DNA from: an uncultured Ruminococcus sp.
Lineage (GTDB): Bacteria; Bacillota; Clostridia; Oscillospirales; Ruminococcaceae
Assembly (NCBI GenBank): GCA_947627445.1
Contig: CANQWA010000005.1
Coordinates: 19,626 to 83,625, forward strand
Reading direction: 5' to 3'
DNA length: 64,000 nucleotides
The notes under the pieces were generated by a model. The model ran no database searches, was not told where the DNA came from, and saw nothing but the letters and a program-made list of their open reading frames with translations. Shown piece by piece: positions 40,425 to 42,967 of the stretch (positions are counted from its first letter, which is position 1; each line of letters opens with the position of its first letter). The translations under genes were made by a program, and so were the position numbers.

Positions 40425-41675
40425 GTGGTTTACGTCATACCGATTCTGATATTACTCATTCTTTCTTCGCTATTTTCCAGTACAGAAACTGCCTTTGCCT
40501 GTGTAAACAAGATACGCATGAAGCATCTGGCAGACAACGGCGACAAACGTGCCGGGACTGCGCTGAAAGTCGCCAACAAATATGAGCAAGCGCTGACTGC
40601 TATCCTGGTGGGTAATAATATCGCCAACATCGGCTCTTCCTCTTTGGCAACGGTTTTATTCACAAGGTATTTCGGCTCGGCTGGTGCAGCCATTTCCACC
40701 ATCGTGATGACCATTCTGGTACTTACCTTTTGCGAGGTGCTGCCCAAGTCTTACGCCAAATCCCACGCAGACAAATTTGCTCTTGGCTTCGCCGGCATTC
40801 TCTCCAAATTTATCATTCTGATGACACCCTTTGTCCTGCTGTTCGATCTGATGTCCCGTGCGTTCCAATCGAAAGATGAAACGCCGTCTGTGACAGAGGA
40901 TGAACTGAAATATATCATTGATGAGATCGAAGAGGAGGGTGTTCTGGAGGAACAGGAAAGTGATCTGGTGATCTCTGCTCTGCAATTTGACGAGACATTG
41001 GTCACCGATATCCTCATTCCACGTGTCCGGATCGCTGCCCTTTCATCAGATGCCACCATTGACGAAGCCAGAGATCTGTTTCTGAACAGTCAGTTCTCCC
41101 GGTTTCCCGTCTATGAAAAAAATTTGGACAATATCATCGGCATGATCACCAACAAAGACTTTTTCCGGCTGATATGCGGTCAGTTTCAGACATTGCAGGA
41201 GATCACACACGATGTGATCTATGTGCCGGAAACCAAATGCATCAGTGAAGTCCTGAAAGAAATGCAGCGTGCCAAAACGCATCTTGCCATTGTGGTAGAT
41301 CAATACGGCGGCACAAGAGGCATGGTGACACTGGAGGATATTATTGAAGAACTGGTGGGAGATATCTATGATGAAAGCGACGAGGTTCTTCACGAGCTTC
41401 AAAAAATTGAGTCTCATGTCTACACAGTCACCGGATCTGTCAGCATCAGCGACGTCTGCGGCAGGCTGGATGAGGAGGATAAACCAGAAAAGATTCCTGA
41501 AACAGATTCTACCACCATCGGCGGATGGGTCATGGAGCTTCTGGGACATATTCCGAAGCCAGGAGAAACTGCTTCCAGCGGGTTATTCCATTTCACGGTG
41601 CTGGAATCTGACAATCAGACGGTAAAATTAGTCCAGTTAAACATGACACCGGAAACAAAACCGGAAGAAAAATAG
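40425..41675 (+). CDS. CNNM/HlyC-CorC family membrane protein (DUF21-CBS-CorC)
   Basis: 416 residues in the family order: DUF21/CNNM membrane domain with about four segments (residues 1-135; SSTETAFACVNKIRMKHLADNGDKRAG is typical), two CBS domains (about 190-310; DILIPRVRIAALSS and RAKTHLAIVVDQYGGTRGMVTLEDIIEELVGDI) and a C-terminal CorC/HlyC domain (about 330-405). Such proteins take part in Mg2+ or other divalent cation extrusion; older labels say hemolysin. GTG start behind AGGAGGAAACATT. It is convergent with a CorA-type gene, so two divalent-cation genes adjoin. Confidence 0.9.
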   Translation: MVYVIPILILLILSSLFSSTETAFACVNKIRMKHLADNGDKRAGTALKVANKYEQALTAILVGNNIANIGSSSLATVLFTRYFGSAGAAISTIVMTILVLTFCEVLPKSYAKSHADKFALGFAGILSKFIILMTPFVLLFDLMSRAFQSKDETPSVTEDELKYIIDEIEEEGVLEEQESDLVISALQFDETLVTDILIPRVRIAALSSDATIDEARDLFLNSQFSRFPVYEKNLDNIIGMITNKDFFRLICGQFQTLQEITHDVIYVPETKCISEVLKEMQRAKTHLAIVVDQYGGTRGMVTLEDIIEELVGDIYDESDEVLHELQKIESHVYTVTGSVSISDVCGRLDEEDKPEKIPETDSTTIGGWVMELLGHIPKPGETASSGLFHFTVLESDNQTVKLVQLNMTPETKPEEK

Positions 41676-41732: not shown

Positions 41733-42662
41733 CTATTTTTTCTTATACAACAACAGGATCATCGCCACCATTGCAGTCAGTACAATAGCAGCCACTGTCG
41801 GGATCCAAGTAAACTGCGCACCGGGCAGATCTGACGTATTCATCCCATAAAAGCTGAACACCATGGTCGGGATCGCCAGAATAATCGTAATGATAGTCAA
41901 CCGCCACATCACAATATTCAGATTATTGGAGATCACAGAACCGAATGCCTCTACGATCCCTGCCAGAATGCCTGAATAAATGGTTGCCATCTCCTGCGCC
42001 TGTTTCAGTTCAATGAGGACATCCTCCAGCAGATCCTGATCTTCCTCATAGAGTTTGACGACTCTGCCTCGAAGAATCTTATTCATGGTCACATCATTGG
42101 ATTTTAGGGACGTAGAAAGATAGATTAGAGACTTTTCCAGTTCCAGCATCTGGATCAGCTCGTGGTTTTTCATAGCACCATGAAGCTTTCTCTGCATGAC
42201 TGTGGAGGTCTTGTCGATCTGCTTCAGATAGATCAGGAATGAAGCTGTGATGTTCATCATCAGCCGAAGCACGAACTGTGTCCGGAACTGGGTCTGGATA
42301 TTCCGCAGTCTGCCTTCTACAACATCGTCGATCACTTTATTCTCCCGCAGAGAAATGGTAAACACGTTCTGTTCCGTGAGAATGATGCCCAGAGGCATGG
42401 TGTAGAAGATCAGCGTATCGTCCTTCTGCACATCAGAAACAGCCGTGTCTACGATGATCAGTGTCTGGTTTTCCTCCTGTTCCACACGGGAGGATTCCTC
42501 TTCGTCCAGGGAGGATTTCAGAAAATCGCTGTCCAGTCCGTACTTGTCAATGAGCATTTTTCGCTCCTGCGCTGTGGGATCTACCACAGATACCCAGCAG
42601 CCGGGCACAATGTCCTCCAACTCGATCAAACGGCTGTCAACGGTTTTATAGTAAGAAATCAA
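41733..42662 (-). CDS. CorA-family divalent cation transporter
   Basis: CorA/MIT-type Mg2+ (or Co2+/Zn2+) channel. 309 residues: cytoplasmic alpha/beta funnel domain, long helices (residues 150-250), then two C-terminal membrane segments joined by the signature FYGMNTSD. The last residues are LLLYKKK. I place the start at TTG 42662 (reads MISYYKTVDS), 8 bases after AAAGGTGG; the track's GTG 42674 sits inside that ribosome site. The mRNA leader is about 140 bases and holds a 25-codon peptide gene. Confidence 0.88.
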   Translation of the reverse strand: MISYYKTVDSRLIELEDIVPGCWVSVVDPTAQERKMLIDKYGLDSDFLKSSLDEEESSRVEQEENQTLIIVDTAVSDVQKDDTLIFYTMPLGIILTEQNVFTISLRENKVIDDVVEGRLRNIQTQFRTQFVLRLMMNITASFLIYLKQIDKTSTVMQRKLHGAMKNHELIQMLELEKSLIYLSTSLKSNDVTMNKILRGRVVKLYEEDQDLLEDVLIELKQAQEMATIYSGILAGIVEAFGSVISNNLNIVMWRLTIITIILAIPTMVFSFYGMNTSDLPGAQFTWIPTVAAIVLTAMVAMILLLYKKK

Positions 42663-42698
42663 ACCGGATACCACCTTTCTGCAAGGCAGTCCGATTCC

Positions 42699-42776
42699 TT
42701 AGCGGCGGCACTGCCCTGTTTTGTTTTGTTGTATGTTTTTCTGCATCTGTTGCAAAGGATATGGGTCAGCGTTCAT
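42699..42776 (-). CDS. Leader peptide (uORF) upstream of the CorA-type gene
   Basis: 25-codon ORF missing from the track. ATG 42776 follows AGGAGG with 6-base spacing, as good a ribosome site as any gene here. The product starts MNADPYPLQQMQ and ends GQCRR. It lies between the promoter (42810-42838) and the corA start, ending 36 bases upstream of TTG 42662. The N-terminus has an acidic residue followed by proline (ADPYPL), similar in layout to MgtL of enterobacteria (EPDP), a peptide through which low Mg2+ alters ribosome behaviour and mgtA expression. Downstream, GGCAGT / ACTGCC can pair across the uORF stop, and CCTTT within the uORF could pair with the corA ribosome site AAAGG. Role as a Mg2+ sensor is inference. 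Confidence 0.6.
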   Translation of the reverse strand: MNADPYPLQQMQKNIQQNKTGQCRR

Positions 42777-42809
42777 ACCGCACCTCCTCTTTCTTTTTAT
42801 TACATTCCT

Positions 42810-42838
42810 ATTATACCAGAAAAAAACCAGTTTGACAA
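42810..42838 (-). promoter_or_regulatory. Promoter of the CorA-type transcript
   Basis: Minus strand TTGTCA, 17 bases, TATAAT, about 30 bases before the leader peptide ATG. Confidence 0.8.
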
Positions 42839-42876: not shown

Positions 42877-42927
42877 TAAGGCAACACCGCACAAAGCCGT
42901 CAGGCGTTCTTTGTGCAGTGTTGCCTT
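42877..42927. repeat. Palindromic repeat family A, short copy 2
   Basis: 51 bases, TAAGGCAACACCGCACAAAG / CTTTGTGCAGTGTTGCCTTA with one mismatch and the loop CCGTCAGGCGTT, flanked by TA. It lies just past the 3' end of pflA and may end the pfl transcript. It is followed directly by GAACTTGTTC, the end of repeat family B. Confidence 0.8.
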
Positions 42928-42967
42928 AGAACTTGTTCCGTAGCTTTTTCCACACCAATCTCGTTAT

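Follow-up and report, generated by a model that had tools for sequence, protein, structure and literature searches.

A conserved Asp-Pro leader peptide ahead of corA in Ruminococcus as a candidate Mg2+-dependent translational attenuator

In the literature that we found, the sensing of Mg2+ by destabilisation of the ribosome is an enterobacterial story. MgtL is a short uORF in the leader of the Mg2+ transporter gene mgtA of E. coli and Salmonella, and ribosomes drop off on its E-P-D-P sequence at low Mg2+, in consequence of which mgtA is expressed (PMC11552253, PMC11282234). The E. coli mgtL, which we read directly from the genome record, encodes 17 residues and starts with M-E-P-D-P. Efficient translation of mgtL represses the transporter, a P-type ATPase, by Rho-dependent termination. 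As for MgtQ of Salmonella mgtB (PMC8092293), acidic codons are reported to destabilise the ribosome, and a helix switch frees or hides the ribosome binding site of the transporter gene; this uORF has 8 codons with Asp2 and Glu5, lies inside an operon, and is reported not to need its proline codon. CorL precedes corA in E. coli and Salmonella, and translation of this uORF is reported to be inverse to corA expression (PMC11552253). CorL involves Rho-dependent termination and a UUG start, and the annotated E. coli uORF ahead of corA, ysgD, is LDTPSRYWLTILSSRINS, which contains no D/E-P. In translational attenuators of the Erm type, the position of the ribosome on the leader ORF picks between two helices, one of which hides the Shine-Dalgarno (SD) sequence; the signal there is a ribosome-stalling drug, and there is no D-P code. 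The M-box (ykoK, RF00380), an Mg2+ sensor in Mg2+-transporter leaders of Firmicutes, is a folded RNA aptamer.

Here, we analysed the leader of a corA gene in the window (the whole stretch of 64,000 nucleotides of an uncultured Ruminococcus sp. that was analysed), and the features of the locus are listed in Table 1. The initial annotation had described a 25-codon ORF with a consensus SD sequence and the start MNADPYPL in a 140-base leader, ahead of a transporter gene starting at 42662. The uORF was found exactly at these positions on the minus strand (start ATG, 42776-42774; stop TAA, 42701-42699), with its SD sequence 6 bases ahead of the ATG, in a leader of about 140 nt as counted from the end of the promoter at 42810 to corA. 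The promoter is of the strong sigma-70 type with an extended -10. The start of corA was assigned to the TTG at 42662-42660 by alignment of gene starts, especially with the ATG of the relative L007, in agreement with the annotated start. The product has the GMN motif (YGMN in the sequence) and matched Pfam CorA (7e-47, 160 bits); the score with NCBIfam corA (TIGR00383), 104 bits, was below the cut-off of 200.75, and the protein is therefore called 'CorA-family' and not 'CorA equivalog'. By family membership, Mg2+ is its probable substrate. The M-box covariance model (RF00380) had no match in the corA leader or in the genome, the whole-genome search gave no match to MgtE either, and bL31 was present in the genome. 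No intrinsic terminator was found in the leader. A CNNM/CorC-type gene (40425-41675) adjoins corA in the convergent orientation, and a near-perfect inverted repeat, AAGGCAACACTGCACAAAG...CTTTGTGCGGTGTTGCCTT (42880-42932), either a terminator or a dispersed element, sits between a gene of the radical-SAM activating-enzyme type and the corA promoter.

Table 1. Features of the corA locus in the window
Feature	Position	Strand	Basis
corA, CorA-family divalent cation channel, 309 aa, stop included	41733..42662	-	Pfam CorA; NCBIfam corA
corA Shine-Dalgarno AAAGGTGG, predicted P2 partner of CCTT	42671..42678	-	GAAAGG invariant in 15 leaders; P2 covariation
Predicted P1 3' arm GGACTGCCTTG; its CCTT is the anti-SD of the sequestrator helix P2	42682..42692	-	pairing, covariation
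Predicted P1 (antisequestrator) 5' arm CAGGGCAGTGC, under a ribosome terminating at the uORF stop	42708..42718	-	pairing, covariation
uORF, 25 codons, MNADPYPLQQMQKNIQQNKTGQCRR, stop TAA	42699..42776	-	direct sequence reading, translation
N-terminal code M-N-A-D-P-Y-P, proposed ribosome-destabilising part	42756..42776	-	same peptide in 14/15 leaders
uORF Shine-Dalgarno AGGAGG	42783..42788	-	direct sequence; GGAGG kept in 15/15 leaders
Promoter of the corA transcript, TTGTCA, 17 nt, TATAAT	42810..42838	-	11/12 consensus match

The gene corA was present in all 16 genomes of the genus, and an SD-led uORF preceded the orthologue in 15 of them, R. callidus ATCC 27760 included; L017, the most divergent member of the genus, has corA without the uORF. 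In a pattern search of the whole genome of the window, SD-M-x-x-D-P-x-P occurred exactly once, and this single occurrence and the 15 of 16 congeners together argue that the uORF is not due to chance. Absence of the uORF from close relatives had been proposed in the initial annotation as a test that could overturn it, and the idea survived this comparison. The peptide starts with MNADPYP in 14 of the 15 leaders and with MRADPYP in the remaining one (L015). Across the 15 species, no difference was observed at the first or second position of codons 3-7 (A-D-P-Y-P), and codons 3, 4, 5, and 7 (Ala, Asp, and both Pro) varied synonymously at the third position. Residue 8 is Leu, Ala, Val, or Arg, and beyond residue 7 the peptides could not be aligned across the genus. 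The alignment thus supports a constraint on A-D-P-Y-P at the amino-acid level in 15 of the 16 members, and, as far as comparison can tell, the pattern is as expected for a peptide that the ribosome reads, and not for a working small protein. The uORF has 13 to 31 residues in most species; in L003 / L087 the frame has 82 codons, still ending at the P1 arm described below, and no TATAAT was found in the upstream stretch examined there. TATAAT lies 39-85 nt ahead of the uORF in 14 of the 15 relatives, with L003 as the sole exception.

Across species, a segment of the GCTGCCTTT type lies just ahead of the corA SD sequence GAAAGG and has two pairing options, namely, the upstream AAAGGCAGC-like arm (P1) or the downstream SD sequence (P2). 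Comparison of the leaders thus shows two predicted helices that are conserved and mutually exclusive. For P2, which was scored at fixed columns with no fitting, covariation was 0.266 vs 0.153 +/- 0.023 in shuffles (0 of 500 as high), and slid registers gave at most 0.147. For P1, it was 0.339 vs 0.222 +/- 0.028 in shuffles (slid registers, at most 0.137), numbers that lean in favour of P1 because its arms were picked by pairing. P1 was kept in L008, L006, and L015 despite quite different sequences. Although the uORF varies in length from 13 to 82 codons, all 15 leaders have the start of the P1 5' arm close to its stop codon, at -20 to +7 nt. When a ribosome was parked at the uORF stop in the prediction, the SD-unpaired probability fell from 0.51 to 0.27 in the window, from 0.60 to 0.01 in L004, from 0.57 to 0.01 in L008, from 0.63 to 0.01 in L015, and from 0.86 to 0.70 in L007; that is, the predicted accessibility of the SD sequence was cut wherever it had been appreciable, and about two-fold in the window, where P2 is weak with a core of 4 bp. 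In the sister clade (L009-L014, L016), the P2 hairpin reaches up to 15 bp, spans the start codon region, and outcompetes P1 at equilibrium; P1 there would therefore have to act during transcription. Of the pairings suggested in the initial annotation, that of GGCAGT with ACTGCC on either side of the uORF stop was confirmed, and it is maintained in relatives through compensatory changes. The switch idea stands as to two alternative helices, but in relatives the SD sequence pairs with CCTT(T) in the 3' arm, downstream of the uORF stop. The anti-SD suggested earlier, CCTTT at codons 7-8 of the uORF, was rejected because it is unconserved among relatives.

The uORF probably encodes a regulatory leader peptide and serves as an Mg2+-dependent translational attenuator of corA. 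We infer that the uORF is translated, that ribosomes abort at D-P, that Mg2+ is the signal, and that control runs in the following direction. A-D-P-Y-P would destabilise the translating ribosome, as E-P-D-P does in MgtL, and at low Mg2+ ribosomes would stall or drop off around codons 4-7. With its 5' arm left uncovered, P1 would form and occupy the anti-SD, and the SD sequence of corA would be open, so that CorA would be made. With sufficient Mg2+, the uORF would be completed and the ribosome would terminate over the 5' arm of P1; the 3' arm thus freed would pair with the corA SD sequence (P2), and CorA synthesis would fall. Note that the conserved part of the uORF in the window has one acidic residue only (D4), position 2 being N instead of the D seen in most of the class, and the destabilising effect may therefore be weaker than that of MgtL.

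When compared with the known systems, M-E-P-D-P-T-P-L-P of MgtL aligns without gaps with M-N-A-D-P-Y-P-L-P of L003-L005, with D4, P5, P7, L8, and P9 in common, whereas E2 of MgtL corresponds to N2, and the Ruminococcus uORF thus has no acidic residue at position 2. As in MgtL, efficient translation of the uORF is expected to repress the transporter; unlike in MgtL, the gene downstream is corA, the organism is Gram-positive, and the leader anatomy points to SD sequestration as the output. MgtQ appears to be the closest in mechanism, since the ribosome binding site that it releases is sequestered in the way predicted here; it belongs to another gene family and another phylum. Alternative leader structures from which translation of the uORF could select are present as the predicted P1 and P2, and by its anatomy the uORF would belong with the leader peptides of the MgtL/MgtQ type. 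The likeness to MgtL in DP-x-PL, from which the same kind of sensor had been proposed, was borne out, in that M-x-x-D-P uORFs recur before CorA class-wide and related ones before MgtE and CNNM (see below); the proposal for the Ruminococcus corA leader is supported by this comparison.

Outside the genus, SD-M-x-A-D-P-[Y/W/C]-P was found at 27 places in a scan of 85,462 genomes. All short Clostridial uORFs among them lie ahead of a CorA, MgtE, or CNNM gene (corA in Ruminococcus, CNNM in L084, which is the L025 locus, and MgtE in L075), and the remaining places belong to other phyla or lie within long frames. Searches with M-x-x-[D/E]-P-x-P gave further cases for MgtE (L040, L046) and CNNM (L025, L042). 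In the census of corA in the class, an SD-led M-x-x-[D/E]-P uORF was present in 16 of 68 leaders from 11 families (as coded by the tool) and in 1 of 239 control genes (p 1e-10), with a mean of 0.12 such uORFs per shuffled leader set. The starts were MDADPKRT, MDADPGEK, MDADPRAC, MDADPGNL, MDSDPGGS, MDCDPGGS, MDCDPDSN, MDTDPDTN, MDADPHTN, MSADPYPN, MNPDPCGK, and others. In other subfamilies, CorA genes with high scores (most of L214-L243) had no uORF, except for L238 (MDIDPYP) and L243 (MDTDPYP), 281-287 nt from the gene. In the census of mgtE, M-[DEN]-x-x-P-x-P was present in 20 of 84 leaders vs 0 of 184 controls (p 1.5e-11), a motif refined on the same data; with the motif that had been set in advance, [D/E]-P with two prolines, the numbers were 11 of 84 vs 3 of 184 (p 2.6e-4). 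The p values of both censuses ignore the relatedness between genomes and are hence optimistic; the occurrence in many families is a stronger argument for an association with Mg2+ transporters. Gene starts in the censuses were picked automatically by SD strength; some leaders were thus misplaced, and L040 was missed. Since none of the 30 best-scoring CNNM loci had an M-x-x-D-P leader uORF near the gene, the association with CNNM comes from two loci only, L025 and L042. The strict mgtE-type pattern gave no support outside the class: 300 genomes of the phylum, nearly all from outside the class, yielded 6 matches, none of them ATG-started or leader-like.

In two mgtE leaders, L040 (1941-2099, minus strand) and L046 (1590-1751, minus strand), an M-box lies just upstream of an M-D-x-D-P-L-P uORF, and two kinds of Mg2+ sensor are apparently arranged in tandem there. 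In 15 aligned mgtE leaders (e.g., L097:2806-2930 and L114:443-567), a 12-bp helix pairs the SD/start of the uORF, GGTGGTAGTTATGG, with the distal CCATAACTACC; both sides changed in a compensatory manner at 6 of the 12 pairs, the helix had no Rfam match, and a short hairpin lies over the mgtE SD sequence. Several CNNM proteins themselves start with LDP/LEP (MLDPDS, MLDPSY, and LEPGG in L119-L127; MNLEPEP in L052). A destabilising sequence at the N-terminus has been reported for E. coli CorC (PMC12421838), and the start of a CNNM protein may by analogy limit its own synthesis at low Mg2+. In L023, L024, and L037, all of one genus, serine-recombinase-like genes are preceded by a frame of 55 aa that is conserved and has D-P at the equivalent position (MQIDPFPV.../MLIDPLPI...); a small protein of a mobile element is more probable here than a leader.

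Other explanations of the Ruminococcus leader were weighed. The conserved part of the uORF has two proline codons, Salmonella mgtP is reported to be controlled by charged tRNA-Pro, and proline codons are of importance in mgtL (PMC8092293, PMC11552253). In the manner of classical attenuation, the uORF might thus respond to how much charged proline or aspartate tRNA is available, or to EF-P activity, with Mg2+ acting only indirectly. We regard this as rather unlikely, because the uORF has no run of one amino acid, the genes downstream are for Mg2+ transporters and not for amino acids, and the class-wide constant is D4-P5 and not the number of prolines (MDADPKRT, MDADPGEK, and MDADPRAC have one). 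A constitutive helper, which would act without sensing by re-initiation at corA or by keeping the mRNA open, would leave unexplained why conservation stops after the first 5-7 residues and why conserved alternative helices hide the SD sequence under a ribosome at the stop. In its favour, the uORF stop and the corA start are only about 35 nt apart in the window, and re-initiation leader peptides that raise translation have been proposed (PMC4833913); in other families, however, the stop is 14-126 nt away, and we judge a helper to be unlikely.

That the RNA itself senses Mg2+ as a riboswitch, with the uORF being incidental, is very unlikely. Mg2+ riboswitches exist, as in the M-box upstream of the two mgtE uORFs, and for gamma-proteobacteria a corA motif has been put forward as a candidate riboswitch (PMC6429828), but the conserved block of our leader is protein-coding, and it has, the two helices aside, no conserved unpaired core able to bind an ion. 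A riboswitch was also rejected as a candidate in the search of the leader, as no Rfam family matched it, the sole match nearby was a chance miRNA below the threshold, and the genome lacks the M-box. MgtR and MgtU are small peptides that regulate Mg2+ transporters (PMC8092293), and the product of the uORF could likewise be a small protein acting in trans on CorA or elsewhere; this is hardly credible for a peptide that is unrelated between species past residue 7 and has 13-31 residues in most species.

An Mg2+-dependent translational attenuator that would work like MgtL/MgtQ, but is new in being Gram-positive, translational, and spread over several transporter families, is thus the best explanation of these comparisons. 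The literature that we searched (main texts, few of them from subscription journals) gave no account of such uORFs in Clostridia. PMC6429828 analysed Clostridium novyi and lists uORFs, and it is possible that its supplementary tables already list some of these without a name. We lean towards a class-wide Mg2+ regulon of Clostridia that is read by the ribosome, in which a shared N-terminal uORF code, with the variants M-D-x-D-P (CorA), M-D-x-x-P-L-P (MgtE), and M-D-A-D-P (CNNM), would control the translation of several unrelated Mg2+ transporters, at times in tandem with the M-box, the code having been reached independently of, or anciently shared with, enterobacterial MgtL. The naturally varied set of uORFs could teach which N-terminal residues make the ribosome abort, and the attenuator could explain how transporters are controlled in genomes without the M-box, such as this Ruminococcus genome. 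The same peptide code before CorA, MgtE, and CNNM in many families of Clostridia suggests a general role for the ribosome as an Mg2+ sensor in Gram-positive gut anaerobes.
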